Source: Giardia muris (lineage: Eukaryota; Fornicata; Diplomonadida; Hexamitidae). From it: a DNA stretch of 64,000 bases. Under the pieces are notes generated by a model, which saw nothing but the letters and a program-made list of their open reading frames with translations, did no database searches and was not told the DNA's origin. The translations under genes and the position numbers were made by a program. The DNA lies in contig CM016925.1 in the NCBI GenBank assembly GCA_006247105.1, positions 1,550,001-1,614,000 of the forward strand. The letters run 5' to 3'. Positions 40,634 through 59,431 of this stretch are shown here, piece by piece. How positions within the stretch are numbered: position 1 is the first letter of the stretch; the number at the start of each line of letters is the position of its first letter.

Positions 40634-40659
40634 TTTTTGCTCTTCCCATCATGGTATCA

Positions 40660-40678
40660 GGGCTGACGCCTTCAGCCC
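40660..40678 (+). other. Hairpin in 243-bp intergenic region
   Basis: GGGCTGA (40660-40666) and TCAGCCC (40672-40678) form a perfect 7-bp stem with a 5-nt loop in the gap between the WD-repeat start and the PSMA4 stop (40634-40876). No tRNA, no C/D snoRNA boxes in a convincing layout and no Giardia ncRNA 3' motif were found. A 66-codon forward ORF (40695-40895) also crosses here and is not supported. Confidence 0.25.
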
Positions 40679-40876
40679 AGAAATATGCCAATAGATGACG
40701 TATCCACGAGGTGCATCCCTTGCAGAAGAAGGACGCCTGAAAGCCCCGCAAAGAATTACTGCACGAACAGGCTTGGAATATCTTATTTTTCCAGCATCAA
40801 CTGTCTTTAAGGAACAAGGGTCATACAGGAGGTGTTTTACATGCCCGCCACAGGCCGTTCGCTCGAGAGAAGCTCT

Positions 40877-41605
40877 TTACGCGAGCGTCTCATAGATCGC
40901 ATCGATCTCAGCGGCAGTGGCATACGTTGCAGTAACCTTGGTCTTGTTGGAAAGAGTAAGGGTCAGAACCTCAATCTTCTCCGATGAGACCTTCGCGATG
41001 TATGTTGTCTTGACTAGCGCGGAGATGGCGTACTTCTTCGCCTCATCAATTGTGACACGCTGTGCGTTGCTAGTGATATACTGCTTCATCGCCGAGGCAA
41101 TTTCCGGAGCAGAGCCCCCAATGCTCGTTGCCACCCAGGCTGCGTAGTTCCCACTCGGATCGGTCTGATATAACTGGAAGCCGAGACGTTGATCCCAGCC
41201 CCCAAATAGGAACGAGACGCCGAAGGGGCGAAGTCCTCCATGGTGCGTGTAGTTCTGCTTGTAGTCTGAGATATAACGAACGAGCGTCTCAACAGGGATC
41301 AACTCATCATAGGTCGCTAGCCACCTTTGACTGTAAGTGCGGGCCTCGTCGATAAGAAGATTAGCATCCGACGTCAGCCCCGAGACTGCGCAGACGATGT
41401 GGTCGTCAATTCGGTACATCTTCTCGCTCGTTCTCTGATCGCTAAGCTTCGATACTAGTTTCTTTTGAGCAGCAAACACGACGCCATCCTCCGCAAGGAT
41501 GGCAAGGCATGGAGCGGCCGCCGTCACCGCCTTGATCGCGTACTCGACCTGCATGAGACGGCCATCCTGGGAGAACAAGGTCGTACGAGAATCATAACGA
41601 GACAT
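40877..41605 (-). CDS. PSMA4: 20S proteasome alpha subunit, PSMA4 (alpha-3) type
   Basis: 242 aa. The alpha-subunit N-terminal signature YDSRTTLFSQDGRLMQVEYA is present, then GVVFAAQKKLVSK, GLTSDANLLIDEAR, and RPFGVSFLFGGWDQRLGFQLYQTDPSGNYAAWVATSIG. MSRYDSRTT and the LYQ(S/T)DPSGNY motif are those of PSMA4. Alpha subunits form the outer rings and gate and are not proteolytic. The Lys/Glu-rich C-terminal tail of the human protein is absent. An A-run precedes the ATG, and the ANK-RING gene ends 8 bp upstream. Confidence 0.95.
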   Translation of the reverse strand: MSRYDSRTTLFSQDGRLMQVEYAIKAVTAAAPCLAILAEDGVVFAAQKKLVSKLSDQRTSEKMYRIDDHIVCAVSGLTSDANLLIDEARTYSQRWLATYDELIPVETLVRYISDYKQNYTHHGGLRPFGVSFLFGGWDQRLGFQLYQTDPSGNYAAWVATSIGGSAPEIASAMKQYITSNAQRVTIDEAKKYAISALVKTTYIAKVSSEKIEVLTLTLSNKTKVTATYATAAEIDAIYETLA

Positions 41606-41613
41606 TTTTTACT

Positions 41614-43296
41614 TCAGCTGACAACCTGCAAGTTGACCCTCAGGGTACCGTGGATCGGCGTACGGCACAGAGGGCACTGACGCCCTATGAGACTCTCCGC
41701 ACACTCTTGACAAACGCACAGGTGGCTACAAGGGTCAAAGATGATAGAGCGACTCTGCGCGAGGCAAACCACACACAATCGCAACTGTATTAGATCGGAC
41801 TCCTGCATAACGGCCTGAAGAGAAGCAAATAGGTTCGTCTCCAGGAGCTCAAGTTCGTCCTTCGTGTATCCAGCAAAGTTATGCATGATCGGGACGATTC
41901 GGAGCTTACTATTAAGCAATGCGGTACGGCTCTCAATGGCATGGAGGTCGCTAGTAAGAGCTTCAAGCCTTTGATCGATATTCCTTCCTTCTCTATTCAA
42001 ATCATCGATCCTCCTCTTCAAGACCTCGGTATGGAGCCTTTTTGCTGTCAGAGAGTCCTGAGCCTGCTTAATCTGCTCCTCTAGCATCTCTAGACTTTGC
42101 TGTGTCGAAGTCTGAAGAGACTTCTCGATTCGAGTAGTCAACTCATCGATATCCCTGGGTATTCCCTTTGAAACGTTCGGAATAACACATCTTGTCCGCT
42201 TAAAGGACGTGTGGGGGTGGGGTGGCTGTACTTCCGAAGCCTTGGAGGCGTTCTCAAGAGAGATATTACCAGTAGTGTTTCTTACCTCCTTGTTCTGCTG
42301 AATGGTAGCAATATGATAACGTAGAAGTGTAAGGAAACGTCGCCGATTCCCCTTCTGTTGGCGAGTTCCGGCTGAGGAAAGAGCAATGTCAAGTACAGAC
42401 TCTCCTGCTAAATTCAAGAGTTGAGCCTCCGGAAGTAGCATTCTCGCAACATTCACGTGTCCAGAATGCACCGCATAACTGAGGGCCGTCCAGCCGCGTT
42501 TGTCTTGGCGATTTAATCCTGACGAGATGAGATGTGTGACAAGTTTGAGTCTCCCTAGCTCTGCAGCGTACATCAGCGCCGTTTTCCCATCGGAATCGCA
42601 ATGGTGCCCACATGAAGCTAGATGTTCCACCTCAGCCAACCGATCTGTGTAGATGTAGAAGCGAAGAAGGGCAAACTCTTTTGTTGGAGAAAAGGCTCGA
42701 ATCGGTGCATATTCATCGGCATCTTCTTTGAGAAGATAATTATAGATATGGTCATGGCCGTTTTGAATGTGCATCCTTGTACTAGGGTCAATCGCATCGA
42801 ACTTAGCATACCAATCTGCACCTCGGCCGGCGTTGTCCCGAAGTCCTCGCTCATATGGAAGAAGCGCCTCGACAATAGGCTGATACCCATATCGAGCGGC
42901 ATGCATAAGGGCAGAACATTTGAATAACCCATCTTGTCTACCAGCCTCTGGCAACAAAAGCTCAACACACTGAAGGTTCCCTGTGGTCACCGCAATCATT
43001 AGGGCTGTAGTACCATTATTCGTACTAATACCTGCTTCGGCTCTCAAAAGTAGTGCGACGCAGTCTGTAAACCCGAACTTTGCAGAGAGCATGAGTGCTG
43101 TCATTCCCCCACTTCGCTGCATACATGCCTCTCGCTCTAGAAGGGCTTGCACACACTCTGTATGGCCATATCGTGCGGCGTGCATGAGAGCCGTTTCCTC
43201 ATATCCAGTTCCCTCCCCAGCTGCTGATAGGTTCGCATGAAGCTTTGTAATGTCACCTACTTGGGCGGCCTCAACCAGGGCTGAATAGCATGCCAT
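41614..43296 (-). CDS. Ankyrin-repeat protein with coiled coil and C-terminal RING finger
   Basis: 560 aa. N-terminal ankyrin repeats (TALMHAARYGHTECVQALLERE, TALMLSAKFGFTDCVALLL, TALMIAVTTGNLQCVELLL, and a second group from about 230, TALMYAAELGRLKLV), a coiled coil around 395-490 (EQIKQAQDSLTAKRLHTEVL), and a RING at about 508-545: CVVC...CSHLCVCQEC...CPLC, the H-x3-C-x2-C spacing of the IAP/MDM2 subtype. Likely a cytosolic E3 ubiquitin ligase whose ANK domain picks targets; activity is inferred. Its start faces the left inverted-repeat arm 152 bp away, and transcription runs away from the island. Confidence 0.9.
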   Translation of the reverse strand: MACYSALVEAAQVGDITKLHANLSAAGEGTGYEETALMHAARYGHTECVQALLEREACMQRSGGMTALMLSAKFGFTDCVALLLRAEAGISTNNGTTALMIAVTTGNLQCVELLLPEAGRQDGLFKCSALMHAARYGYQPIVEALLPYERGLRDNAGRGADWYAKFDAIDPSTRMHIQNGHDHIYNYLLKEDADEYAPIRAFSPTKEFALLRFYIYTDRLAEVEHLASCGHHCDSDGKTALMYAAELGRLKLVTHLISSGLNRQDKRGWTALSYAVHSGHVNVARMLLPEAQLLNLAGESVLDIALSSAGTRQQKGNRRRFLTLLRYHIATIQQNKEVRNTTGNISLENASKASEVQPPHPHTSFKRTRCVIPNVSKGIPRDIDELTTRIEKSLQTSTQQSLEMLEEQIKQAQDSLTAKRLHTEVLKRRIDDLNREGRNIDQRLEALTSDLHAIESRTALLNSKLRIVPIMHNFAGYTKDELELLETNLFASLQAVMQESDLIQLRLCVVCLAQSRSIIFDPCSHLCVCQECAESLIGRQCPLCRTPIHGTLRVNLQVVS

Positions 43297-43447
43297 ACCA
43301 CCCTTTTTATTGCTAGTTCCTTCGTTTCAGTAAATTCTTTATCTTTTCACATTGCAAATCCATAACCACGACTCTATAGTGAAGATGGGCAAAGCACGTG
43401 CAAGTACACTTGTCTCCCTTCCACGACGAAAATAAACTCCTGATCTC

Positions 43448-44666
43448 TTCCCAAAAGAGGGAGGAGTGAGAGGCATGAGGAAGCGGGGCTGGACTTTCCC
43501 AGGTGTGGTCCTTGCCTCGTCGGACCGCCAGCTCTATAGGTGGAGTTGGGACACAACCCAGTCAGTCTTCCGATATAATGCTTGAGGCGAGAGCTCCTGT
43601 CTGACAAATAGCATTCTCGACAGTGTGGGCCAACAGGAACAACCTCATATGGATAATCCTCTTCCCATTGGCAATTTGTATTCTCCAATCCCACCTTCTC
43701 CTATATACCATGAAGGCCATCTGCCTCTTAGAAGAGATATCGCTGGATCCGATATTAGCTTACTGTCTCTTAGTCTGACCCTCCAACAAACCTAGGGCCA
43801 TGGAGCAGGGCGAAGACTACTTCCCCTTCAACTTCTAGTATAGAATAGGCACCTCCTATCTGATGACTGATACCCATAAGAGTATTAACATCCCTATACC
43901 TTCAGATCCACAACAGTCTCAGGCATCAATGTGGAGGCATAGTTATTCTTCGACATTGAGACGGACTTTGTAGTACGCTCGCATGTGTATTCCATCCTAT
44001 CTTTTGATCTTCCCTTGTGCCTATCTTTACTATTATAAGGTTCTTGGGAGATAACTGCTGCTTACCATAACTACCATAGTTCATTGCCGCATTCCACATA
44101 CCCTCAAGCATATGAAATGTATCTACGATCACGATAGCCCTGCATTAAAGCACTTAGATGGGTTCTGTGACTTCCTCCTTTCATAACTTATATGAAATAA
44201 CGGTCCAAGCTTCTAAAAGATGGCTGGGCGAACAGAGCTTTCTGGACAAGAAGCAAACCTATCTCTACTTGAGGCTCTGAGAAGTGTATAGAGGATCAGG
44301 ACACCGATGGAAATTCTATCTATTCTAGGATAGAGTCATTCTAGAGAATATTTGACTCCGAGAGTTGAACTATTATATCTGGTTCGTTATTAGAAGCATC
44401 TGCGTCCGATCGGCCCCTCCCCGAGCAGCTGGTGGGCTCAGGCCGGGGAGCTGTGTGGTTATCCCGTTCTCCTGATGTGTCCAGGAACAACCAGGACGGA
44501 CCAGGATGTCCTGGAGAGCAGGCCCGAACCATGAGCATCGATCTGGCCCTCAACCTGTCAAGGAACGACACACAGCCCTTTCGGAGGGCCCCGGTGGGAC
44601 GCACGTCTGACGCCGTTCCTCGTCGGCTGGAAGCCGGAGGGAGCCACGACCACTCGGAAGGACTCC
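43448..44666 (+). repeat. Left arm of 1,219-bp perfect inverted repeat
   Basis: Reverse complement of 53502-54720; paired coordinates always sum to 98168, so there are no indels. All lines of both arms were compared by eye and no mismatch was found. The match ends abruptly at both limits. The outer two thirds are AT-rich and without convincing coding potential; the inner 330 bp are GC-rich like the island. Short ORFs inside are present in both arms but have no recognisable domains and start mostly with non-ATG codons. No transposase gene is visible. Confidence 0.97.
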
Positions 44667-46060
44667 TGCCTGCGGCCCCGAGCGGAGCATAACTGCCGGG
44701 ATCTGTTCCTCACGACCTGAAACCGCCCCGGGCGTGGCTAATCTCCTCTCGATGACCGGTGTACGATACCCCGGAGGTAAGGACAGTCGAGCAGTCCCTT
44801 GGGCCCGGGGTTGCACGAGGAAGTCCTCCATAAGCGACCTCTTGACCTCCCCTGTTTCTCCCTCCTCGTCTTTGTAGTCACAGAGAGGGTAGAAGGTCTG
44901 CATGGCCTGGGGCCGAGCCATCGGGGAGTAGAAGGACGCTTCTGACTTCTCAGTACGCAGAGGAGGCTGCAGGAACCGACCACCAAAGAGCCCGCAAGTC
45001 GTAGGCCAGGCCGGCCCCGGAGGATCGTGTCGACTGGGCGCTTCTTGTTGGACTGCATGGCCGCCCAATGGGACTTCCTGGGCGTCTTCGGAACCCCCCT
45101 GCCCCTCGGTTCTCTGTGGTCCAGGACGTCCTGCTGGCCCCCACGATCCGAGCTGGGATGACCGCTGACCTCAGAGGCGTGGGATGTCTGGACGGAAGCA
45201 CAGCGTTGAGGAAACCTTCGACCGGTCTCCTTTCGGACTGGGAGACGAGCAACGGGGCAACTACGGGGTCTTCCGGGCCGGCTGGAAGCGATGAAGTCTG
45301 TCCTTCAGAGTGGAGTCAGTGGCATACGAGCCCTCTAACGTCCCAGACCATCAGCCCCGAAGACGAGGACCGAGCCTTCGTCTGAGCATCGTCGTCGGTC
45401 CAGTCCTGACCGAGTACGCCAAGGACACTGCCTCCCTGTGCAGTCCCCAGGCGGATCGATGCCCAGGACGTTCCCCCACCAGAGGCGTCTTGAGGCATGC
45501 GAGACTGCTCAGGACTTCCGGATGCTGCGAGTCCCCTGTCAGGGATCGGCACGCCATCTCAACTATCAGCCGTGCTCCTCGTCCACCGGCGTGGTCCTGG
45601 ACTGGTCCACGTAGCACTCGCACAAGTGGAGCCGGGACAACCGGGGTGCTGGTAGAGTTGTCCAGTGCCAAGAGATGCGATCACACGCTCCCCGTCGAAG
45701 CGGACCCCCGGGCCCTGTCATGGTCGGGCTTGTCCCTGAGGGCAGACGACCACATGAGGTCATGAACCTGCCTGCAGAACGGCCTCTCCCCTCAACTCAA
45801 AGGCGTCCGATGTCCTCCAGATCCATGGGGGGAGTGAGTCCAGGACGGGGGATGGGCTTTCGGACTATTCCCAAGTCGGATCTGCCCCGTCCTGCGGGAT
45901 GTCCCTTCCCCCTTGACAATACCGTGACCCCTCTGGACGACCTCGAATGCCTCTTCCCACGGCCCGCTCTCGACTCCTTCCCACATCCCGACAGTCCTTC
46001 TGAGCCCTCTGTCTGGTACCAGCACACCCCGGAACCCCGCTTCGACCCTCTGCCGGTAGA
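44667..46060. other. GC-rich stretch without a convincing gene
   Basis: 1.4 kb upstream of the VSP. ORFs of 90-170 codons overlap on both strands, as expected from high GC content, but none has a recognisable domain or a good start. The largest, reverse-strand 44550-45068, begins at TTG and runs into the repeat arm. It may be decayed coding sequence or a VSP upstream spacer. Confidence 0.5.
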
Positions 46061-47848
46061 ATGTTCGTTTCACTCCTGCTCGTGGTGAATGCCGTCCTCG
46101 CTGCCCAAGTAAGGGCCTCTCTTCCCGGCGACAACGAGCTCCGAAAAGTCAGGAGCGACACTTGTTCCATCGACAACTGCAAGACGTGCAACTCTGCTGA
46201 CAGCACGAAGTGCGACACCTGCAATGACGGCTTCCTTCCCAAGGAAGACAAAACCGCCTGCTACACCTGCGCCGCCTGCACCAACTGTGCCACGGCGAGT
46301 TCTGACAACACCTGCGCCTCCTGCAAGACTGGATATGACACTCCAGCCAGTAAATGCAACACCTGCGCCTCGGGCTACAAACCCGACAGCTCGACCTCCA
46401 TGACCCAGTGCTTCGAGTGCACGAGTTGCGACCACTGCACCGAGGCGAGCCAGGCCAACACCTGCAAGACGTGCGCAACTGGATACGCTGTTGGGACCGG
46501 GAAGTGCGACGCCTGCGCTTCGGGCTTCCTTCCGAAAGCTGACGGGACCTGCGTCTCCTGCACCGACACCACCAAGTGTTCTAACTGTGTCCAGGCGAGT
46601 GATGTTGACACCTGCTCAGGTTGTGCGGACGAGTACTTCCTCGACACCACATGTAAGAAGTGCAGCGCGGGTTGTAAGACGTGCTCCGATGCCAACACCT
46701 GCTCCAAGTGCCTTGATGGATACAAGCTTGACAACAGTGCCTGCACTGCTTGCACCGTCACCAATTGCAAGACGTGTGACACCGACGTCAGCACATGCAC
46801 CGCCTGCAAGGAGGGCTTCGGCCTTACTGGGACAGCCACCAAGGCCTGCACCGCCTGTGGGATCGATGGCTGTGGGACTTGTGACGACGACGTGACGAAG
46901 TGCACAAAGTGCAAGACCGGCCTCACATCCCTCGGCACCCCCATCTCGGCCTGCCTCGACCTCCAGGACCCCGAGTGCCAGCAGGCCGAGAAGGTCGGGT
47001 CGAACGACGTCTGCGTCCAGTGCTCCCAGACCCACGCCCCCGTCGACGGGAAGTGCGTCCCGATCTCCTCGGCTGTCTGCACCACCCCCTCCACCTGCAC
47101 GTCCTGCAAGAACGGCTTCATGCTGTACTCCGGGGGCTGCTACTCGACCCGGAAGGCCGCGGACCTCGGGATCTGCGCCCAGAGCCGCCAGAGCCTCGTC
47201 GGGGATGCGCTCGTCTGTGGTGAGTGCTCTGCCGGGTTCGTCCCAATCGACGGGTCCTGCCGTCCTGTCTCGGGGTCTGTGAGGACGAACATCAACACGA
47301 TCTGCTTCGATGACGCGACTGGGACGACGGCCGCCAACAAGGACTCGAGGAGCTGCAAGGCGTGCAGGAACGGGTATTTCCTCTTCAACGGAGGCTGCTA
47401 CCCAACAACCGGGGACTCTGTCGGGGCGTCCATCTGCACCAATGTCGACAACAACGGGAAGTGCACTGCCGCCCCGACCGGCGCCCCCCTCATCCTCAAC
47501 AGCGACGGGACCTTCAGCCCCTGCCCCACCGGGTGCGGGATGTGCCAGAAGGACGCGACGAGCGGGGACGTCACCTGCTCCTCCTGCGGCCTGGGGTACT
47601 ACAACTCGGCCTCTAGTGGCACCACCTGCACGGCCTGCCCCAGTGGGTGCACCTCCTGTCCAAATGGGAAGTGCACCCTCTGCTGGGACGGCTCCACTCC
47701 CACCAACGATGTCTGCCCCTCTCCCCCCTCCTCCAGTTCTTCGGGGCTCTCTGGGGGTGCCATTGCGGGGATCGTCATCGCCGTCCTTCTGGTCCTGGGA
47801 GGTCTCGGGGGCTTCCTCGGTTGGTGGTTCGGATGCAGGGGGAAGTGA
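46061..47848 (+). CDS. Variant-specific surface protein (VSP)
   Basis: 595 aa. N-terminal signal peptide (MFVSLLLVVNAVLAAQ), then a ladder of CxxC motifs through the whole ectodomain (CKTCNSADSTKCDTC, CASC, CNTC, CKKC), with Giardia-type GGCY motifs (GGCYSTRKA, NGGCYPTT). A Ser-rich spacer precedes the conserved C-terminus: membrane helix GGAIAGIVIAVLLVLGGLGG then WWFGCRGK and stop. G. intestinalis VSPs end CRGKA; here the final Ala is absent. The sequence around the ATG (gaATGTT) fits the VSP initiator PyAATGTT except at the pyrimidine. Trophozoite coat protein subject to antigenic variation. It reads through without a break. Confidence 0.93.
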   Translation: MFVSLLLVVNAVLAAQVRASLPGDNELRKVRSDTCSIDNCKTCNSADSTKCDTCNDGFLPKEDKTACYTCAACTNCATASSDNTCASCKTGYDTPASKCNTCASGYKPDSSTSMTQCFECTSCDHCTEASQANTCKTCATGYAVGTGKCDACASGFLPKADGTCVSCTDTTKCSNCVQASDVDTCSGCADEYFLDTTCKKCSAGCKTCSDANTCSKCLDGYKLDNSACTACTVTNCKTCDTDVSTCTACKEGFGLTGTATKACTACGIDGCGTCDDDVTKCTKCKTGLTSLGTPISACLDLQDPECQQAEKVGSNDVCVQCSQTHAPVDGKCVPISSAVCTTPSTCTSCKNGFMLYSGGCYSTRKAADLGICAQSRQSLVGDALVCGECSAGFVPIDGSCRPVSGSVRTNINTICFDDATGTTAANKDSRSCKACRNGYFLFNGGCYPTTGDSVGASICTNVDNNGKCTAAPTGAPLILNSDGTFSPCPTGCGMCQKDATSGDVTCSSCGLGYYNSASSGTTCTACPSGCTSCPNGKCTLCWDGSTPTNDVCPSPPSSSSSGLSGGAIAGIVIAVLLVLGGLGGFLGWWFGCRGK

Positions 47849-47854
47849 GTGAAT
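47848..47854 (+). terminator. Polyadenylation signal AGTGAAT at VSP stop
   Basis: AGTGAAT matches the Giardia consensus AGTRAAY and shares its first A with the TGA stop (47846-47848), as is typical of VSP genes. Confidence 0.75.
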
Positions 47855-47942
47855 GGTGAAGGGGAGACCTGGAGCGAGAGGTGACATCGAGCTCATTATA
47901 GACCTCCAGCTCATCTGGATGGACGGAGAGGGGGTCGTATGG

Positions 47943-48981
47943 CTACACATCCGGCCACTCAGGATACTCGACGACAAGGGCCTCGTCGGCCTTCCCCCGG
48001 CAGTACGGACAGCAGTGCTCGATCCGGTCCGCACAGACGACGAGGTGCCGGCAGGGAAGGATGACCGCGTCCTTCTGGCGTGAGAGGCAGACGACGCACC
48101 CGTCAACCATCTCGTCCTCGCAGAGGACGTCGTCCAGTGCTCCGGGCTCGCAGAAGAGTGCCGACCAGACCATCTCTCCGAGCTCCAGGGCCTCCGACTG
48201 CTCGATCGGGGACAGGAGGGCCAGGACGTGGTGCGGGCTGAGCATCTCCAGCCTCTCCCGTACCTTCCGCACGACCGCCTCCTCCAGGGCATCTGCAACT
48301 GCTCGATACGTCCTTGAAGAGTGAGTCAGACTGCTCCCGAACAAGCTCTCGGATCCCCTCGATGTGCATTCTTCCGTCCCCTTCGTGGACTGCCGCCTCG
48401 TCCGCCAGGAGTCTTGCACACTCGACCCGGCCCTCCTGGAGTGCAAGCAGAAGGGCCGTCTCCTTCCGGTTGTTGAACAGCCCCCCCTCGAGTGGAAGGA
48501 GCAGGAGGACAGATGCGGGGCGTCCATGAGAGGCGGCCATCATCAGGGCTGCATCCCATGAGCCTCGATGCCCACGTGTAGTGTTCCTGACTCCCCCGAC
48601 GTCCCCTGTTGTGACGGACTCCAAGGACGTCGGTAGCTCCCTGGAGGGGGGTGGGTCTGTCCCTTCTTGAGGAGCCTCCTGTCCCCGACCACCATTCCCG
48701 TGCCCCTCGGAGTCCTCCACTCCTCGCTCGTGGGGAGGAGGGCAGCTGTGCGGCCACACCGTGCAGTCCAGCCACCTTCTTCCTCTCCCCGACCTCATCG
48801 AGATCGTCCTTCCCTCTCGATGTCTCCACCAAAGGAGTGAGGGATGTTTCCGAGCCCCAGCCCCCTCCCCTCCGGTCACAGAGGCCGACCCGTCATCTCG
48901 CATCCCCTCGACAACAGAGGGGCGTCCATATCGGTGCGCCCGTCCCCGGGAAGCCAGTGGGCCCCTCCCTCCGTCTGGCAC
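47943..48981 (-). pseudogene. Frameshifted ankyrin-RING pseudogene
   Basis: Two reverse-strand frames complement each other. The upstream frame carries ankyrin-like sequence at about 48570-48320 (DAALMMAASHGRPASVLLLL, TALLLALQEGRVECARLLA). The other continues from about 48310 with a helical region and a RING (CVVCLSRQKDAVILPCRHLVVC) to a stop at 47943. The switch falls near 48310, where the ANK frame runs into unrelated sequence. The RING also lacks the sixth ligand: where intact family members have C-x2-C, an arginine stands (CADR). The 5' part of the upstream frame is not ANK-like, so the start is lost or unrecognisable. A relative of the two intact ANK-RING genes flanking the island, convergent with the VSP. 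Confidence 0.6.
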
Positions 48982-49231
48982 GACTCTCGTCAGAGGCCCT
49001 TCGTTCTCGAGAGGGGAACGGGCCCGATCATCACCAGGGGGTTGGGGGGCTATAAGGAGAGACTGATGACCAGTGGGAGCTCATCCAGGGACGAGAGCAC
49101 CCCGAGGAGAGCTGTGGGCCTCCCGTCCTCAAGACAGGTCGTTGGTAGTGGTTAGATGCCCAGAGTGTCGGATGGGCGGGGAGGGGGAGCTTCAGTGGAA
49201 GGCTGGTGAAGGGGATGTCTGATTCTCAAAA

Positions 49232-51937
49232 ATGTCCCTTACAGACTTGATGGAGGCGGCCATGGATGGCGATCTCGAGGGCGTGAAAAGGAACCTCAAG
49301 GATGTTGGGAAGAAGGGTGGAAATGGATGGACGGCCCTGATGGTGGCTGCAAACGAGGGCCACGCCAATTGCATTCCCCTCCTTAAGGAGGAGATCGGGA
49401 TACAGAGCAACGACGGGTGGACTGCACTGATGCTGGCCGCCTTCAATGGCCACATAGACTGTGCCCGACTCCTCCTCTCTGAAGCGGGGAAGCAGACGAC
49501 AGAGGAATGGGATGACTTTCCCCCCAGAACGACCGCTCTCATGATGGCAGCTATCTGGAACCACCCCGATATCGTTGAACTCCTTCTCCCTTATGAGCAA
49601 GGAATAGAGGATTCCAAAGGACACACTGCTCAATGGCATGCAAACAACAGTTCAGAGAGAGGAGACTTCACCCGTGTCCGCAAGCTCCTCGAGAATGAGG
49701 GGACAGAACGACTCCCCCCGCCACATAACCCCGGTGAAGTGCCTGGGCTCCGGGATCGTGTCAACGAACTCACCACTGAGAACGATTCCCTCAAGAATGA
49801 CCTCTCCTCCTCCAAGAATACATACAATGAGACGGAGAGGAAGCTATCTCATATGGAAAAGGACCTCGAGGAACTGAAAGCAGTCAATACGAGCTTACGG
49901 GCCGGCATCGATGAAAGAGATGGACATATTCGGATATTGGAAGACACCCTGAGAGAGAGTGAGCAACTACAACGGCGGCTCGCCAACACCGAAGAAGATC
50001 GTAGACTCGCCCGCAATGAGGCCAGCGAGGCCCGTGCACGTGCTGAGCAGCTTCAAAGGGAAAATGCTGAACGACAAAACGTCTTGGATGCAACCAAAAG
50101 GGAGTTGGAGAATAGCAGACGACAACTGCGAGAGACGGGGGAGGAACGAAGCAGGGTGGCAACCCAGCTCTCCCAGTCTGAGGAGTGTTGTCGTGGCCTC
50201 ATTAATGAAGTGACTGGGCTTCAGAAGCAAGTCGAGGAAGGGAAGAATGAGCAGAAGAAGAATGCCGCCCTTATCGACAGTCTCAAAGCCCAGCTCTCCA
50301 AAACCAAAGAAGAGAAGAACGCCCTCCACAAACAGTTCGAGGACAGAGAACGACGGGACAGGACTCAGATCGATCAGCTAACTGCAGAAGTCGAGTCTCT
50401 CAAGAAAGACCTCTCCTCCTCCAAGAATGCACACAATGAAACAAAGCAGGAGCTATCCCAGCCGAATCAGGAAAACTCCTCCCTCAAACAGCAGCTCCAA
50501 AAGGCCAACGAAGAGACAAAGAAGTATCGGGAAACGTATGAGACCTTGAATTGGAGAGCACAGGAAGCCGAGAAGAGCCTTGCCGAGGCGAGGGGAGAGA
50601 TCACTTCCCTCAAAGCCCAGCTCTTCAAGACCAACGAATCCCTCAAGAGAGCACTCGCAGACCAGAAGGCCAAGAACCTCGCCCTCGAGAAGGAGGTTAC
50701 CCAATTGAGGACCGAGAGCCATGACATGAAAGACCTTCGGAGACGCCTCGAGGAGGTGGAGGAGGAGAAGAGGATCCTTCTCCAGAACCTCGCTGCTGTC
50801 GGGGGCAGGCTTCCCCCTGCACGGGAGGCCAGCTCTCTCATCTCATCCGCCATCAGAGGAGACCTCAACACACTCCGAAGGCACCTCGACCAGGCGGGAC
50901 AGAAGGACTCCTCAGGCATGACGGCCCTGATGCACGCCGCCTCCCGAGGCCAGACCGAGGTCGTCCGCCTCCTCCGGCCCCTCGAGGCCCGCCTTCAGGA
51001 CGGGAGGGGATGGACGGCCCTGATGCATGCAGTGGGGAGAGGACACGAGGAGTGCATCGGCCTCCTCCTTCTGGAGAGGGACCTGAAGGACGGGGAGGGC
51101 AGGACGGCAGCCGAGCACGCAGAAGGCGAGAAGATGCGACAGGTGCTCATGCACCAACCCACGCTTCCAGTGCTTCCAGAGAGCCTCTCGGGGTATCACC
51201 TGACCGCTGCACTTGGAAAAGGGGCCTTTGGGGATGTCTATGCAGGCCATGGAAATGGCCGGAACGTGGCAGTCAAGGTTGTTAGCCTTGGAAGACACAA
51301 TGATGAGGAACGGAGACTGCTTCGCAGAGAGGCGGAGATACTCCTCTCCCTCGACCATCCGAACATCCTCCGGTGCCTTGAGACAGGAGAGGACAGCCTC
51401 GAGGACCTCTTTGTGCTCGTGACGGATTTCTGTTGTGGAGACCTCCGTAGGGAGATGAAGGAACGGAAGAAGACAGGACGTTCCTACACCAATCAGGAAG
51501 TATGGAAGATGGTTCGAGAGGTGGCCGCCGCCCTCGCATACCTCCACGAGAAGAGACTTGTCCACAGGGATCTGAAGCCTGATAACGTCTTCCTCTCTTC
51601 CGATGGGAGGTGCGTCCTTGGGGATTTTGGGCTAGCAAAGGTACTCGGGGACTCTTCTCGAATGAATACACGTACAGGGACAGATTTATACATGGCCCCC
51701 GAAATCCACCAAGGGAAGAGGTATGACAATTCCGTCGACGTCTGGGCCCTGGGAGTAGTGGCGCATGAGTTATGCACTGGTGAGCTCCCGTTCTTCACAG
51801 TGCCCGCGATTCTTGAGAGAGGCCCTCCAGCCATCGAGAACAGGGATGGAGGGCTCGTTACCCTCATCTTCCGGATGCTCTCGAAGGACCCTAAAGACCG
51901 TCCGACAGCACGGGAGGTCCTCGAGAAAGCCTCTTGA
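49232..51937 (+). CDS. Ankyrin / coiled-coil / NEK-like protein kinase
   Basis: 901 aa. ANK repeats at about 1-140 (TALMVAANEGHANCIPLL, TALMLAAFNGHIDCARLLL), a long coiled coil at about 175-520, a second ANK block at about 540-640, and a complete protein kinase domain at about 650-900. Catalytic elements are intact: glycine loop GKGAFGDVY, VAIK lysine in VAVKVV, catalytic loop HRDLKPDN, DFG, and APE in YMAPEIH. Best described as the NEK-related kinases that are greatly expanded in Giardia, though the ANK-before-kinase order is unusual; most Giardia NEK-ANK proteins have the kinase first. The ATG follows ctcaaaa. Likely targets and location unknown. Confidence 0.88.
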   Translation: MSLTDLMEAAMDGDLEGVKRNLKDVGKKGGNGWTALMVAANEGHANCIPLLKEEIGIQSNDGWTALMLAAFNGHIDCARLLLSEAGKQTTEEWDDFPPRTTALMMAAIWNHPDIVELLLPYEQGIEDSKGHTAQWHANNSSERGDFTRVRKLLENEGTERLPPPHNPGEVPGLRDRVNELTTENDSLKNDLSSSKNTYNETERKLSHMEKDLEELKAVNTSLRAGIDERDGHIRILEDTLRESEQLQRRLANTEEDRRLARNEASEARARAEQLQRENAERQNVLDATKRELENSRRQLRETGEERSRVATQLSQSEECCRGLINEVTGLQKQVEEGKNEQKKNAALIDSLKAQLSKTKEEKNALHKQFEDRERRDRTQIDQLTAEVESLKKDLSSSKNAHNETKQELSQPNQENSSLKQQLQKANEETKKYRETYETLNWRAQEAEKSLAEARGEITSLKAQLFKTNESLKRALADQKAKNLALEKEVTQLRTESHDMKDLRRRLEEVEEEKRILLQNLAAVGGRLPPAREASSLISSAIRGDLNTLRRHLDQAGQKDSSGMTALMHAASRGQTEVVRLLRPLEARLQDGRGWTALMHAVGRGHEECIGLLLLERDLKDGEGRTAAEHAEGEKMRQVLMHQPTLPVLPESLSGYHLTAALGKGAFGDVYAGHGNGRNVAVKVVSLGRHNDEERRLLRREAEILLSLDHPNILRCLETGEDSLEDLFVLVTDFCCGDLRREMKERKKTGRSYTNQEVWKMVREVAAALAYLHEKRLVHRDLKPDNVFLSSDGRCVLGDFGLAKVLGDSSRMNTRTGTDLYMAPEIHQGKRYDNSVDVWALGVVAHELCTGELPFFTVPAILERGPPAIENRDGGLVTLIFRMLSKDPKDRPTAREVLEKAS

Positions 51938-53330
51938 CCTTCCTCCCGAACTGGGGCCCCTCACTATCACGGGACTCGTCGGGAACGACAAGACCGGGAT
52001 CGTCTACACGGCGTGCAACCGGAGCCATCGGAACTGCCTCCTGAGGGTCGTCCGGTACTCCAGCCTTCCCGAGAAGACACGACACGCCATCGGAGAAGAG
52101 GTGAGGATCCTCCCGAGTCTTCGTCACGAGAACGTGCTCTCCTGCCTCGGAGTGGTGGACGACCCCCCTCAGCAGACGGCGTACTTCGTCTTCCCCTGGC
52201 ACCCCAAAGTACTCCTAGAGGAGATACGAGACCGCAGGGAGGCAGGCAGGTCCTTTGGGACTGACGAGCTCTGGAAGTGCATCCGTCAGATCGCGAACGG
52301 GATGCAGCACCTCCACGAGCACGACTGGTTCTGCAGGGGTCTCTCACCCGCAAGCATCTACCTCTCGAAGGACGGGAAGTGTGTCCTCGCACCATTCGAG
52401 CTCGCCCAGCCACTGGACGCTCCTCTCTACCTGGCTCCCGAGATCCAACGGGGGTCTCCGCACGATCATGCCGCTGACGTCTGGACGCTCGGAGCCATCG
52501 TCTACGAGATGTATGCTGGAGTGCCTCCATTCAAGAGCGTTGATGAGATCTCATCCGGAACCGTCCCCCGCATCGGAGGGAAGCCTGGAAGTCTCGTCGA
52601 CCTCGTTGCCAGGATGCTCTCATCGTCTCCCAAGAGCCGTCCTTCGATTCAGGAGTGCCTGAGGTCGGTGTCACGGGGATCCGATCCCCATCCTCCAAGG
52701 AGGAGTGAGGACCGCTTTATGGAGGCTCTCCGCTCTCGGGGCCGTGGAGCTTACGAGGAGGCCATGTCACTCTTCGAGGACGGTCTCGAACTGTCTCCCG
52801 GACAGGAGGCCGAGGCCTGCAGACTCGCCATTGCGAATGGATGGTCGAGGATGGCGGAGCAGTTCAAGGAAGCATACCGTCCCGAAGAAGGGAGAACGAC
52901 GATGCTCATGTGTGCGGCGATGGACCGGAACCTCGACCTACTCAGAAGGTATGTCCACGAACGCAGAAGGCAGGACGAGAACGGCTGGACGGCCCTGATG
53001 TTTGCGGCTCAAGCGGGCCATCTCGAATGTGCCCGAATTCTCCTCCCCGAGGCGTGGATACGGACAACACGACCCGCCTCGGATCTCACTGAGAAAGGGA
53101 CGGCCATGATGCTCGCAGCGCAGGCTGGACACGCAGACATCGTCGAACTTCTCTGGCCATATGAATGCTGTGGAAAGGACGCGAATGACCACAACGCCTA
53201 TTGGTATGCTCAGAAGGCAGCGAAGAACGGGGAACGGATCCGCGAAATCCTCGACCTCGAGGGCCAAGGGAAGGTTCGACGTCGTGAGAATATACCAGCA
53301 ATTGAAGAGATCCTAGGTCGAAAGGAATAG
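51765..53330 (+). CDS. Catalytically dead NEK-like pseudokinase with ankyrin repeats
   Basis: 521 aa if started at the first ATG. Residues about 66-320 are kinase-like (ENVLSCLGVVDDPPQQTAYF, YLAPEIQRG, DVWTLGAIVYEM), but the key residues are lost: HRD-x-K-x-x-N is replaced by CRGLSPAS, DFG by PFE, and the VAIK lysine by arginine (LLRVV). ANK repeats follow (TALMFAAQAGHLECARILLPE, TAMMLAAQAGHADIVELL). The first 57 codons overlap the upstream active kinase in another frame and there look like shadow sequence, so the true start is uncertain: ATG at 51765 or 51846, or read-through after a frameshift linking both genes. The domain order kinase-ANK is the usual one. Confidence 0.7.
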   Translation: MSYALVSSRSSQCPRFLREALQPSRTGMEGSLPSSSGCSRRTLKTVRQHGRSSRKPLDLPPELGPLTITGLVGNDKTGIVYTACNRSHRNCLLRVVRYSSLPEKTRHAIGEEVRILPSLRHENVLSCLGVVDDPPQQTAYFVFPWHPKVLLEEIRDRREAGRSFGTDELWKCIRQIANGMQHLHEHDWFCRGLSPASIYLSKDGKCVLAPFELAQPLDAPLYLAPEIQRGSPHDHAADVWTLGAIVYEMYAGVPPFKSVDEISSGTVPRIGGKPGSLVDLVARMLSSSPKSRPSIQECLRSVSRGSDPHPPRRSEDRFMEALRSRGRGAYEEAMSLFEDGLELSPGQEAEACRLAIANGWSRMAEQFKEAYRPEEGRTTMLMCAAMDRNLDLLRRYVHERRRQDENGWTALMFAAQAGHLECARILLPEAWIRTTRPASDLTEKGTAMMLAAQAGHADIVELLWPYECCGKDANDHNAYWYAQKAAKNGERIREILDLEGQGKVRRRENIPAIEEILGRKE

Positions 53331-53501
53331 GACCTCGCCAGTCTATCGTGGGGACGTGAGCGGTGACTACTGGTGACTAGCCACGTTAGTGTTACAGCGA
53401 CCACCCCCGTACCCTCACGAGGGACTGCATCTCCGGGCCATACGATCACCAGTCCGTGGTGAGAGCTGAGGAATAGTCCACATCACGCATGGCAGACAGA
53501 G

Positions 53502-54720
53502 GGAGTCCTTCCGAGTGGTCGTGGCTCCCTCCGGCTTCCAGCCGACGAGGAACGGCGTCAGACGTGCGTCCCACCGGGGCCCTCCGAAAGGGCTGTGTGT
53601 CGTTCCTTGACAGGTTGAGGGCCAGATCGATGCTCATGGTTCGGGCCTGCTCTCCAGGACATCCTGGTCCGTCCTGGTTGTTCCTGGACACATCAGGAGA
53701 ACGGGATAACCACACAGCTCCCCGGCCTGAGCCCACCAGCTGCTCGGGGAGGGGCCGATCGGACGCAGATGCTTCTAATAACGAACCAGATATAATAGTT
53801 CAACTCTCGGAGTCAAATATTCTCTAGAATGACTCTATCCTAGAATAGATAGAATTTCCATCGGTGTCCTGATCCTCTATACACTTCTCAGAGCCTCAAG
53901 TAGAGATAGGTTTGCTTCTTGTCCAGAAAGCTCTGTTCGCCCAGCCATCTTTTAGAAGCTTGGACCGTTATTTCATATAAGTTATGAAAGGAGGAAGTCA
54001 CAGAACCCATCTAAGTGCTTTAATGCAGGGCTATCGTGATCGTAGATACATTTCATATGCTTGAGGGTATGTGGAATGCGGCAATGAACTATGGTAGTTA
54101 TGGTAAGCAGCAGTTATCTCCCAAGAACCTTATAATAGTAAAGATAGGCACAAGGGAAGATCAAAAGATAGGATGGAATACACATGCGAGCGTACTACAA
54201 AGTCCGTCTCAATGTCGAAGAATAACTATGCCTCCACATTGATGCCTGAGACTGTTGTGGATCTGAAGGTATAGGGATGTTAATACTCTTATGGGTATCA
54301 GTCATCAGATAGGAGGTGCCTATTCTATACTAGAAGTTGAAGGGGAAGTAGTCTTCGCCCTGCTCCATGGCCCTAGGTTTGTTGGAGGGTCAGACTAAGA
54401 GACAGTAAGCTAATATCGGATCCAGCGATATCTCTTCTAAGAGGCAGATGGCCTTCATGGTATATAGGAGAAGGTGGGATTGGAGAATACAAATTGCCAA
54501 TGGGAAGAGGATTATCCATATGAGGTTGTTCCTGTTGGCCCACACTGTCGAGAATGCTATTTGTCAGACAGGAGCTCTCGCCTCAAGCATTATATCGGAA
54601 GACTGACTGGGTTGTGTCCCAACTCCACCTATAGAGCTGGCGGTCCGACGAGGCAAGGACCACACCTGGGAAAGTCCAGCCCCGCTTCCTCATGCCTCTC
54701 ACTCCTCCCTCTTTTGGGAA
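53502..54720 (-). repeat. Right arm of 1,219-bp perfect inverted repeat
   Basis: Exact reverse complement of 43448-44666. Outside the arm at 54721 the sequence diverges at once from the left flank; inside at 53501 likewise. Between the pseudokinase stop (53330) and the arm, 171 bp hold nothing recognisable. The right ANK-RING gene begins 73 bp beyond the arm. Confidence 0.97.
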
Positions 54721-54793
54721 AGGTTACAATGAGAGGAACCATATAGTCTTTGGTGAATATTACTTTATCATTTAATACTAGACTTGGAGGAAA

Positions 54794-57484
54794 ATGCTCA
54801 TGGAGTTGACGAATCTGATGTTGGCGGCTCAAAAGAATGACGTCCAGGGCGTAAAACAGTGCCTAAATGAGTGCGGAAAGCTATATGACGATATGACGGC
54901 CCTTATGATGGCGATCGAGAAAGGGAACACTGAATGCGTCGCACTCTTGGAACAACACGAGCGGAACGTATTCAACAGCTGTGGCGTCACACCTCTCATT
55001 GTTGCACTTCATTTCGAGCAATTCGCTTGTGTCGAGATCTTTCGTGATCAGTGGGAGATTGCAACCCAGAAGCAATGGAAGTCTCTATTCCCCGGGACTA
55101 CAGCACAAATGATGGCCAAGAAGGCGGCCAGTCCCAACATAAGGGCATTGTCATTTTCAGGGTTAACGACCTCTTGTCAAGATCCTGTACGAGCTGGGGT
55201 ACAAGCAAGTAGGAATGGGAGCGTAATGCCTCAGGAGGAGAGAACTACGAGTTCGACCTTTAATAGGAAAGATCATGAGGTCCTTTGCCAGAACTATCTC
55301 AAGGCGGCTCAAACTGGCAACTATCGGTTCATCCGAGAGAACAGTATGTTTATTACGGCTTTGGATGAGAAAAAGCGTACCGCGCTCATCCTTGCAACGA
55401 AGGAGGGGCATCTGGACTGTATCAGGTTTCTAGCATCTTCGTTGAGTGGGAAGGTCGATGCAGAAGGGAATGCGGCCATATTTTACGCGTTGAAGAATAA
55501 GAATCATGAAGCAATAAAGGTTCTTGCTCAGAAGGAGCATCAGGTTATTAGCGCATGCGGCCTAACGCCTCTTATGGAGGCCGTCTTATTGGGAGACCTC
55601 GACGCAGTCAAGATCATGAGTCCCCACATGGCTAAGGGTGTCACAAAGAAGCCTTTGGCCCTGGATGGGCCCATAACTCCGCTACCTGAGGCATCAACAG
55701 CACTCATGCTAGCTATTTGTTGCAACCAGACGGAGATTGCGTTGCACCTAGCCCCCTTGGAGGTCGGAAAGAAGAATAACAGGGGTTATACGGCCCTGAT
55801 GTATGCGGCAATCGTCGGTAATGTGAGACTCGCTCAGGAACTATCCAAAGAGCTAAAAACGATCAATAGGGAGCAGGAAACGGCCTTTTCACTAGCTCTA
55901 CGCCACAATAACCATGGTTGTCTCCCTTACCTTAAGGGGGAGGGCTACCTTCTCCTGAAGGAGAAAAAGACTGTCATTCAGCAGCTCATTGCTGAGAACA
56001 AGATGTCCATTGCCAAGGACGCCTTAACTGCAATAGGGCCGACACCCTTAGCCGCTGCAATTGACCTCAAGGAGGATGCGTGTGTTCGGTCCCTTCTTCT
56101 GCAAGAAAAGAGAATTACGGAGAAGCAATTCGCGAACATGGGGATCACGAACCTCATGTTGGCTCAGATGGTAAGGGAGCCCAAGGCCATACATTACTTT
56201 AGTACAGAAGCGGGCCGGGTTGATCGGAATGGAAGCACCGCACTGATGCGTGCCGTGCATGAAAACGATAGGGATGGTGTCCAATGCTTGCTTCAATACG
56301 AGGGAGGACTAACGGGGTCCAGAGGGCTCACGGCCCTCATGGTCGCTGCAATGAGTGGATCTGAACAGCTAATCCCGCTTTTACTGGAAAAGGAATGTGG
56401 GCTTACCGATATTTCGGGGTGCACTGCACTTATGTATGCGATCATCCACAACAGAAAGGACTGTGCGAAGTATTTTCATCAGGAGATAGGAAAGGTGACT
56501 ACTTCTCCGATCAACGTGATCTTCGAGAACGAAACGATCGTGCTTTCAAAAGGCGTTAGCGCTCTCATGTTGGCTGTCATTTATAAGGTTAATGACGTTA
56601 TACCTAGCCTGGCACCTGGCGAAGCGGCTCTCAAGGACGAGAACAATCAGACCGCGTACGATTACTCTGTTACATATAAAAACGGCCCTGCCATGGCAAT
56701 CCTTGCGAACTCCTCTCCACGCCCCAAGGAACAAGGGTCTGGGTCTAAACATACATGTACAGACCTTGGTTCTCCTACCAAGCGCTCTGTTAAATTCTCA
56801 GATCAAGAGACTCCTATTCCGGAAGCTACCTTGAAGCCCCTTGGGAACAATTCTCTGAAGTCTAAAAGAAAGCCTTCTAGTATTCCTGGAAACGTGAAGT
56901 CTTCACTGCCTTCCGAAGTTGCGGAAAGTGTAACTTCTGAGCCTGCATCTAAGAAGGATATCATGGACATTCTCACGTCCTTAAATGCTAACTTCGTACG
57001 GTTATTCGATCAGTTGGACACCTATGGTATTAAGGGTACACCAAAGAAAGATCTCCCCGTGAAAGAGTGTGAGATTCCAACACTCGAAAACAAGCTCTCA
57101 GAGCTATCAGCTAACCACAAAGCTACCCTTGAAGAACTCAAGTCAACTCAATCCAAGGTGCAGACTCTGACTGTGGAGAGAGATACTTTGCATCAAGAAC
57201 TATCCGTGTTCCAAGGCACAGCCCCACTCAATAAGTATTCGTACCCGGATGTGATTGCTCTCAATCAGACACTGCTGGCGGCCATCGGAAACGTTAATAT
57301 GCACCTGGCACGCAGAGACGTCCTCTTGTGTGTAGTCTGCAACAAGAACCCACGCACCCTATTGTTGAAGCCATGTACGCACTTCTGTATCTGTGATACC
57401 TGCCGCGACGCCCGGACCACGGCTACGTGTCCGATATGCGAGATGCCATTCACGAGCTGCATATCTGGGCACCTTGAACTGTAA
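54794..57484 (+). CDS. Large ankyrin-repeat protein with C-terminal RING finger
   Basis: 896 aa. Ankyrin repeats extend over about residues 1-630, in two or more blocks separated by degenerate repeats (TALMYAAIVGNVRLAQELS, TALMRAVHENDRDGVQCLL, TALMVAAMSGSEQLIPLLL). A Ser/Lys-rich linker, a coiled coil around 755-800 (KLSELSANHKATLEELKSTQ) and a RING at about 846-885: CVVC...CTHFCICDTC...CPIC, the same IAP/MDM2-like spacing as the left flanking gene. Probably an E3 ligase; inferred. ATG after gaggaaa. It reads away from the right repeat arm, mirroring 41614-43296. Confidence 0.9.
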   Translation: MLMELTNLMLAAQKNDVQGVKQCLNECGKLYDDMTALMMAIEKGNTECVALLEQHERNVFNSCGVTPLIVALHFEQFACVEIFRDQWEIATQKQWKSLFPGTTAQMMAKKAASPNIRALSFSGLTTSCQDPVRAGVQASRNGSVMPQEERTTSSTFNRKDHEVLCQNYLKAAQTGNYRFIRENSMFITALDEKKRTALILATKEGHLDCIRFLASSLSGKVDAEGNAAIFYALKNKNHEAIKVLAQKEHQVISACGLTPLMEAVLLGDLDAVKIMSPHMAKGVTKKPLALDGPITPLPEASTALMLAICCNQTEIALHLAPLEVGKKNNRGYTALMYAAIVGNVRLAQELSKELKTINREQETAFSLALRHNNHGCLPYLKGEGYLLLKEKKTVIQQLIAENKMSIAKDALTAIGPTPLAAAIDLKEDACVRSLLLQEKRITEKQFANMGITNLMLAQMVREPKAIHYFSTEAGRVDRNGSTALMRAVHENDRDGVQCLLQYEGGLTGSRGLTALMVAAMSGSEQLIPLLLEKECGLTDISGCTALMYAIIHNRKDCAKYFHQEIGKVTTSPINVIFENETIVLSKGVSALMLAVIYKVNDVIPSLAPGEAALKDENNQTAYDYSVTYKNGPAMAILANSSPRPKEQGSGSKHTCTDLGSPTKRSVKFSDQETPIPEATLKPLGNNSLKSKRKPSSIPGNVKSSLPSEVAESVTSEPASKKDIMDILTSLNANFVRLFDQLDTYGIKGTPKKDLPVKECEIPTLENKLSELSANHKATLEELKSTQSKVQTLTVERDTLHQELSVFQGTAPLNKYSYPDVIALNQTLLAAIGNVNMHLARRDVLLCVVCNKNPRTLLLKPCTHFCICDTCRDARTTATCPICEMPFTSCISGHLEL

Positions 57485-57862
57485 CCAAGTAGACAGACAC
57501 AGTCACTGAGGTATGGTAATACACGGCCCAGAGAGGTATCAACTCACTCATTGTATACTAGCCCGTCTTAACTTAAGGATACGTCTACGTATGTCACGGT
57601 TCTTATGGATCAGAAAGTCAAACATGCTTTCCAAGGTAAAAGAGAACTGTCCTACGCCTCCCTTCGAATGGGGTTAACAATTTGCCCTACTACGTGGGCG
57701 GAGGTTCTTGATAAATTCTTCTAATGATCATTTGAATATGTTTAAAGAAGGAAACATCGACCAAGGGTTAGGGGTAAGGCCATGGGCTCGGACCGAGCAC
57801 AGATATACTTCAGTGCGTAAGCAGTGAGTGGCAGCATCGATAAGGAGGCTACTTGAGGCCCA
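57485..57862. other. Intergenic region, nothing recognised
   Basis: 378 bp between two forward ANK genes, moderately AT-rich. No ORF of interest, tRNA or repeat seen. A GTATGT occurs at about 57587 without a partner 3' splice motif. A short palindrome GCTCGG-A-CCGAGC lies near 57790. Confidence 0.5.
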
Positions 57863-59428
57863 ATGCTGAAGTCCAAGCCATCAAAAAAAACCGAGAATAC
57901 ATCCAAAAATTCCTGCGGGATGCGAACGACGCGTGAATGGTTTAACGCGATCAACTCCGGGGACCGGGCGGCCGTCCGCGCCAACGTTCGTGAATTCGCG
58001 GGGTCTAAGGACGAGAACGGCGAGACGGGGCTAATGCGCGCGATCCGGCGGTCAGATCTGGATACGGCCCTTCTCCTCGTTGAGCAGGAGAATTCCATGA
58101 CCAACTTCGATGGGTACACAGCGATCATGATCGCGGCGCTTAGAAACGATGGGGAGGCGTGCCGCATGCTCGCACCGTTCGAAATCGATTCAACCCTACC
58201 AGATGGTCGCACCCCCCTGATGCTGGCGGCCGCCATTGGGGGGACCGCGGCACTGCGAGTGCTTCTCCCCCACAATCGCTTTCTGTACGATGAGAATGGG
58301 AAGACCGCCCTTTGCTATGCTGCCGAAAACGGGCACCTTGCGGCCGTCCGCCTCCTGATCGAAAGCAATGGGCCGCGCCTTTGTAGCGATGCGAAGGTGG
58401 CGCTTGTCATGGCCGCTATGAACAAGCATAGCGCCGTCGTTGATTATCTGTCCGACCACCAGAGTCAGTACGCCCCTGATGGAGACACGACAACTAGCGT
58501 CGCCGTCACGCACTCCGAGACGAAGAAAAGTATCATTAACGACCTTGAGGATCTGAAAAGCCTGGTCAAGCTCTACAAGGATGAGTCGAAGGCGAAGGAC
58601 CAAGCCCTCGAGAACTACGAGTCGCTGGTGGCAGAGACTGGGCTAACGGACATGCGTAGTGCAGGGGCGTATTCTCCGAGCCAGTCATTAATGCAGAGCC
58701 TTCCGGCCACCGAGGGACGCGACCGGCTCGAAGATGGTGCACGGTTCCACCAGTCTCCACTAACTCAAAAGGACCTGGTGACGACCTCTCAGTTCCTTGG
58801 GAGTACCGCTCCGACGACAAGGGTGGAGTCGACCATCCCTGTTCCTGTCGCGACGACCACTGCCATTGTGGCAGGCCCGAACGTCAATCAGAACACGGAT
58901 CTAATGCTAGCTGCGCAGAAAGGTGATACCAAGCGTGTGAAGGCGTTAATGGGACGTGAAGCGGGGCTTCAGAACGGGAAAGGGTATACTGCGTTGATGT
59001 TTGCAGCCCAGATGGGGCATACGGACGTTGTCCGTCTCCTTGCCGATAAGGAGGCAGGACTGACTGACAAGGATGGCTACAGCGCGCTGATGACTGCGGC
59101 ATATAACGGGTATGCCGATATCGCGCGGCTTCTCGTGGATCGCGAGGGGGGTATACGTATGCGCGACGGCTGGACAGCCCTTATGTGCGCTGCCAACCAT
59201 GGGTATTACGACGTTGTGAAGGCCGTCATGGCGAAGGAGGGAGGGATGCAGACGGATCGGGGCCAAACCGCAATGATGCTCGCAGCCCAACGCGGATATC
59301 TTGACATTGTCCGCGCACTCATCCCAAGGGAGGCGAAGAAGGTCGACGCTCGCGGGCGAACCGCCTCAAAGATTGCCTCAGACTACAGTTACTTCGAGAT
59401 CGTTAAGCTCTTGAAGGCCTTTGAGTAA
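57863..59428 (+). CDS. Ankyrin-repeat protein (two ANK blocks)
   Basis: 521 aa from ATG 57863. An alternative start at 57920 (MRTTREWFNAINSGD) matches the usual opening of Giardia ANK proteins and may be the real one. The first ANK block covers about 20-210 and is degenerate in places (TGLMRAIRRSDLDTALLL, TALCYAAENGHLAAVRLLI). A linker with a short coiled coil (NDLEDLKSLVKLYKDESKAK) follows, then a Ser/Thr/Pro-rich stretch, and a second block of regular 31-residue repeats at about 345-521 (TALMFAAQMGHTDVVRLLADK, SALMTAAYNGYADIARLLV, TALMCAANHGYYDVVKAVM). No RING or kinase. Confidence 0.85.
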   Translation: MLKSKPSKKTENTSKNSCGMRTTREWFNAINSGDRAAVRANVREFAGSKDENGETGLMRAIRRSDLDTALLLVEQENSMTNFDGYTAIMIAALRNDGEACRMLAPFEIDSTLPDGRTPLMLAAAIGGTAALRVLLPHNRFLYDENGKTALCYAAENGHLAAVRLLIESNGPRLCSDAKVALVMAAMNKHSAVVDYLSDHQSQYAPDGDTTTSVAVTHSETKKSIINDLEDLKSLVKLYKDESKAKDQALENYESLVAETGLTDMRSAGAYSPSQSLMQSLPATEGRDRLEDGARFHQSPLTQKDLVTTSQFLGSTAPTTRVESTIPVPVATTTAIVAGPNVNQNTDLMLAAQKGDTKRVKALMGREAGLQNGKGYTALMFAAQMGHTDVVRLLADKEAGLTDKDGYSALMTAAYNGYADIARLLVDREGGIRMRDGWTALMCAANHGYYDVVKAVMAKEGGMQTDRGQTAMMLAAQRGYLDIVRALIPREAKKVDARGRTASKIASDYSYFEIVKLLKAFE

Positions 59429-59431
59429 AAT

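Follow-up and report, generated by a model that had tools for sequence, protein, structure and literature searches.

Genes and inverted arms at the locus

The window, a 64-kb stretch of Giardia muris DNA (C1:1550001-1614000, in a genome of 9.74 Mb and 52 contigs), carries a VSP gene and two kinase/ankyrin ORFs between a pair of long inverted arms. Rightward of the left arm come conserved VSP upstream DNA (44667-46060, plus strand, 94-97% alike to other VSP loci), the VSP gene (46061-47848, plus strand, 595 aa), two pseudogene-like ankyrin/RING ORFs of 194 and 266 aa in different frames (47943-48903, minus strand), an ankyrin/kinase (NEK-like) ORF of 901 aa with HRDLKPDN and DFG motifs (49232-51937, plus strand) and a kinase/ankyrin ORF of 521 aa without HRD and DFG motifs (51765-53330, plus strand). 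An ankyrin/RING gene flanks each arm on the outside: to the left at 41614-43296 on the minus strand, its start codon 151 bp off the arm, and to the right at 54794-57484 on the plus strand, its start codon 73 bp off the arm. The VSP ORF matches PF03302 (Pfam, E 2e-32) and shows the traits of a Giardia VSP of that family, namely GGCY at 358 and 444, a GCRGK end (the G. muris form), 33 CXXC motifs, and a signal peptide and membrane segment as judged by eye; it is 98% identical (582/596) to a VSP pair at C1:835-845 kb. The 901-aa and 521-aa ORFs overlap by 173 bp (51765-51937) in different frames, and the 901-aa one holds, in its coiled-coil region, a 69-nt direct repeat, 83% identical (49783-49851 and 50392-50460).

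The left arm (43448-44666) is the exact reverse complement of the right arm (53502-54720) along all 1219 bp (0/1219 differences), and 8835 nt lie between the two. The arms were the sole inverted pair of at least 60 nt that our repeat scan found in the 64-kb window; with the arms set aside, the longest perfect disjoint inverted repeat was 16 bp, and ten mononucleotide shuffles gave 14-19 bp. The base beyond the arm is mismatched at the outer and inner ends alike, and no ORF of at least 150 aa in the window's ORF list overlaps either arm. Rfam had no match within 40000-58000, and ARAGORN predicted no gene within 40000-60000. A preliminary description of this DNA had claimed perfect 1,219-bp inverted repeats, mostly non-coding and with abruptly ending identity, around a VSP/kinase island, and every part of that anatomy is borne out, the spacer holding one VSP ORF and two ankyrin/kinase ORFs.

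A composite arm around a chimeric island

A whole-genome search with the arm, which the preliminary description had proposed, divided it in two. The outer 955 bp (43448-44402, plus strand, and 53766-54720, minus strand), identical on the two sides and containing no long ORF, matched the genome solely at the two window arms, and short-word blastn found no other match in the stretches examined. The inner 264 bp (44403-44666, plus strand, and inverted at 53502-53765, minus strand) belong to a dispersed element that matched 19 times over 13 loci, both counts being lower bounds. Compared by eye, 17 other copies of the element continue upstream into mutually similar sequence, and the window locus alone breaks away, near 44402/44403, both arms doing so at one and the same base; the simplest account of this shared departure would be that one junction was copied to the opposite side.

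The element is common to VSP blocks, where it lies at the upstream edge, and to kinase/ankyrin blocks, where it lies at the downstream edge, and it thus offers a shared recombination substrate to two unrelated gene blocks. Both meet in the window island, which is chimeric: 44403-48551 tracks VSP loci (96% to locus C1_835), and 50618-53765 tracks kinase/ankyrin loci (93% to C4_838, and 97% to C4_211 from 51901). At all five kinase-class loci (5/5), homology to the VSP side stops at 44664-44666, within 2 bp of the inner end of the arm. Since each block bears the element at its edge, and the two elements lie in opposite orientation in the window island, the inner part of the arm requires no separate event; what remains to explain is the identical outer 955 bp.

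We put at about 60% the probability that the arms are an inverted duplication produced by homologous recombination between opposite 264-bp elements bounding the VSP-kinase island. The composite arm, together with an inner end that falls where the VSP and kinase/ankyrin blocks stop resembling each other, makes it probable that the inverted element primed the recombination which seeded the duplication. With two element copies in opposite orientation at the bounds of the island as the starting point, repair would have begun in the element on one side and copied it, together with the 955 bp of single-copy DNA next to it, across to the other side, by gene conversion or break-induced replication; end joining may have set the outer end of the arm. 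Arm-to-arm copying, as at the inverted repeats of other VSP and kinase loci, would then have made, or would still maintain, the identity of the arms, and a crossover may occasionally flip the 8.8-kb island, the VSP retaining 2.6 kb of identical upstream DNA.

A DNA transposon, or another mobile unit with long terminal inverted repeats, would also flank its cargo with inverted ends, and the 264-bp element is indeed dispersed. At the window locus, however, we found no target-site duplication, no copies with the same ends, and no transposase in the Pfam scan of eight ORFs; nor does a mobile unit agree with outer arm sequence that has no other genome match, or with the absence of known mobile-element classes from this genome, as given in the available part of PMC7641422. 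We consider a mobile unit scarcely credible here.

As to which side supplied the element under element-primed recombination, the sequences weakly suggest the VSP side as donor. Seven sites separate the arm element from all five kinase-class copies, and at five of the seven the arm base is present among the seven VSP-class copies; the arm element also groups with the VSP-class copy at C4_956 (support 0.87). The direction is held at this strength because the class-majority sites of the arm element are mixed (6/10 VSP-like, 4/10 kinase-like) and because the jump in divergence at 53502 is general to kinase-class loci. Some VSP-class copies lie farther away from the arm element, at up to 26 differences, than the kinase-class copies do at 16-20. 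The jump itself, seen against C4_211, C4_34 and C3_150 and absent over the whole block against C4_838 and C2_330, was considered as a mark of conversion and rejected, as it is equally present in ten comparisons among kinase-class loci.

Inverted arms at other VSP and kinase islands

We searched this one assembly for further loci by homology to the window, rather than by a whole-genome scan, and placed the arm ends elsewhere with exact 24-base seeds along a single axis, leaving weakly similar extensions uncounted. Nine further loci have inverted arms, of 1.0-11.4 kb; with the window locus this makes ten, each at a VSP island or a kinase island. Of the 13 element-bearing loci, 8, the window locus among them, have arms of 1 kb or more: C4_956 (11,435 bp), C1_835 (11,141 bp), C1_1962 (9056 bp), C5_727 (6872 bp), C2_592 (5771 bp), C4_211 (3028 bp), the window (1219 bp) and C2_330 (1027 bp). 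Two extra loci are C1_2373 (6571 bp) and C2:1188-1198 kb (at least 2774 bp), the latter predicted from nothing but equal match scores in opposite orientation, and its arms proved identical over the comparable 2774 bp. Where a locus has two copies of the element (6/6 cases), the copies are inverted and lie within arms of this kind. Long near-perfect arms were absent at the other five of the 13 element-bearing loci, in 10-20 kb examined at each: there were no inverted arms at C5_1012 (20 kb) or at C4_838, C3_150 and C4_34 (10 kb each), and at C1_2766 an inverted repeat is present but diverged.

Identical inverted vsp pairs are already published. Adam et al. 2010 (PMC2996952) report 14 in G. lamblia WB, in which similarity breaks off abruptly 139-729 bp beyond the genes, and in G. 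muris, the same genome as the window, the available part of Xu et al. 2020 (PMC7641422) describes identical pairs, head-to-head or tail-to-tail: seven VSP pairs plus one cluster of four copies, the intervening genes being of the kinase, ankyrin and zinc-finger kinds. The kinase and ankyrin families are suggested there as recombination anchoring points. Our computed spacing fits six of the eight rows of their Table 3, five directly (C1_835, C1_1962, C1_2373, C2_592 and C4_956) and the sixth, C5_727, on condition that the start codon lies 47 codons further in, and the listed identical pairs sit in arms at 6 of the ten loci. At C2_330 and C4_211 we found no VSP-like ORF of 200 aa, and among the surveyed loci, with C2:1188-1198 kb covered in part, only the window locus has a lone VSP in the spacer. 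The VSP pair at C1_835 (C1:837211-839001 and C1:841027-842817) is identical except at residue 595, the ends reading GCRRK and GCRGK because arm identity stops within the last codons.

The window feature, a perfect inverted repeat, is a variant of a known Giardia arrangement. Like the G. lamblia WB pairs, as far as they are described in PMC2996952, it has identical inverted copies at a VSP locus and abrupt ends to the matching flanks; there, however, the VSP itself is duplicated, whereas the window has a single VSP ORF in the spacer, in place of two opposite ones, and non-coding arms. Other G. muris arms differ from the WB pairs in reaching up to 11.4 kb and including kinase genes. The available main text of PMC7641422 treats gene pairs and makes no mention of arms beyond the VSPs, pairless arms, clustering of differences or a single-VSP locus, and neither there nor in that of PMC2996952 is there a statement of arm-to-arm conversion or of multi-kb arms at VSP loci. 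Relative to the portion of the Giardia literature that we found, the multi-kb arms and the lone spacer VSP are new.

Aligned arm sequence from the ten loci amounts to 58,894 bases, in which we counted 48 substitutions and not one indel, and at six loci the arms do not differ at all; homologous VSP blocks at different loci differ by 2.3-5.0% (eight comparisons). The substitutions are clustered, with none of 2000 permutations reaching the observed value at C1_835, C4_956 and C1_2373, and 46/2000 at C5_727. Paralogue data are available for 42 of the differing sites: at 26, both alleles are present at other loci; at the remaining 16, which include five of the six at C5_727, one allele is absent elsewhere. 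Arms more than 99.9% alike against diverged paralogous loci are the pattern of Y-type palindromes, and they were found here, with 100% at the window locus. With substitutions so few and so clustered, and no indels, arm-to-arm gene conversion over the ten loci is likely. If short tracts were brought in from paralogues and the arms were then corrected against each other, the shared alleles would be explained better than by independent recent duplications, homoplasy being possible at such sites. Taken by itself, the window locus (0/1219, which bounds arm divergence there at about 0.25% by the rule of three, 95%) is compatible with a single recent event and with repeated homogenisation alike.

A single recent inverted duplication, with no continued exchange between the arms, is a tentative alternative to which we give a real but minor share of belief. 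Identity over 1219 bp and abrupt ends demand nothing more than youth, and duplication and transposition were proposed by Adam et al. for the identical G. lamblia pairs (PMC2996952, available part). Yet this account requires all ten loci to be young although their homologous VSP blocks have diverged, and it sits poorly with clustered differences at four loci, many of them common to paralogues. The preliminary description had left the choice between very recent duplication and ongoing homogenisation; that pair of readings is supported, and the ten-locus pattern favours homogenisation.

We regard it as highly improbable that the second arm is an assembly artefact, produced by collapsing a haplotype or putting one in the wrong place, or that polishing equalised the arms. 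The DNA did come from pooled cysts and there is one PacBio/HGAP assembly; against this, the arm is short relative to PacBio reads, the two arms have different flanks, both outer and inner, the same type of structure recurs at ten loci, and across the whole genome polishing altered no more than 8 deletions, 46 insertions and 16 SNPs (source of assembly details: PMC7641422, available part). Moreover an inverted vsp1267 pair had been reported prior to the genome project, as cited in PMC2996952.

Orientation of the island and related systems

If the island flipped, the VSP would carry along its own 1394 bp of upstream DNA (44667-46060) and would meet an identical 1219-bp arm, so that, whichever way the island lies, the first 2613 bp upstream of the VSP do not change and no near-promoter switch results. 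The anatomy excludes a switch within these 2613 bp, the scope of the statement being the DNA next to the VSP. Inversion of the 8.8-kb island, put forward in the preliminary description as giving an antigen locus with two orientations, is possible, and would be dispensable for explaining the arms; the assembly shows a single orientation. That inversions are the commonest class of structural variant within G. intestinalis isolates (162/392, 746/1860 and 234/483; PMC7048089, available part) makes flipping plausible. The spacers of C1_2373 (C1:2376780-2379929) and C4_956 (C4:962550-965598) match at 97% over 2.7 kb, and the assembly places them in opposite orientations; flipping cannot be read from this pair, since their outer flanks share no homology and the orientations are thus not comparable.

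A true inversion cassette, in which frequent crossover between the arms flips the island and orientation affects VSP expression, appears improbable to us. Perfect inverted homology of 1.2 kb can recombine, and some of the G. intestinalis variants are VSP-enriched (PMC7048089, available part). On the other hand, a flip alters no promoter or reading frame within the 2613 bp upstream, the eight ORFs scanned with Pfam include no dedicated recombinase, and inversion in a human Y palindrome is rare relative to conversion (PMC3723533, available part). For G. muris, no universal promoter motif apart from A-rich starts is given in the available part of PMC7641422. The preliminary description knew of no described VSP inversion cassette in Giardia, and our literature searches on inversion and long palindromes at VSP loci agree: they returned reports of inverted pairs (PMC2996952, PMC7641422; available parts) and structural variants, and no inversion cassette.

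Judged from the arms, the mirror repeats would resemble the product of copying between arms more than an on/off flip switch. Bacterial phase-variation inverters combine short sites for a recombinase dedicated to them with a switch of promoter or coding sequence. The window locus shares with them a potentially flippable segment between inverted repeats, but their recombinase, sites and switch were not found there. Human Y palindrome P6 also has inverted arms more than 99.9% alike, which undergo frequent conversion; there, a genealogy allowed conversion events and rare inversions to be counted, whereas for G. muris there is one assembly (Hallast et al. 2013, PMC3723533, available part).

Arm-to-arm conversion, if true, would answer the identical inverted vsp pairs that Adam et al. 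called 'interesting but cryptic' (PMC2996952, available part): mutual correction of the duplicates would keep them identical. Such conversion would also amount to Y-palindrome-like concerted evolution at the antigen loci of a binucleate parasite, would predict alleles common within an island and differing between isolates, and would account for VSP and kinase islands as rearrangement points of the G. muris genome. A wider proposal is more speculative, and we think it rather unlikely as a whole: that many intact G. muris antigen sites are kept in multi-kb palindromes exchanging arm to arm, that changes in a VSP copy are thereby spread or erased, that islands flip occasionally, and that the orientation of the window island varies between cells or between the two nuclei.

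The diverged inverted repeat at C1:2761356-2772810 lies amid ORFs resembling VSPs, some 50-60 kb short of the end of the contig, and is perhaps an old palindrome in which homogenisation has ceased. Candidate further inverted repeats, marked by equal or near-equal kinase scores in opposite orientation, lie at C2:1831-1836 kb, C5:528-560 kb and C2:642-663 kb.
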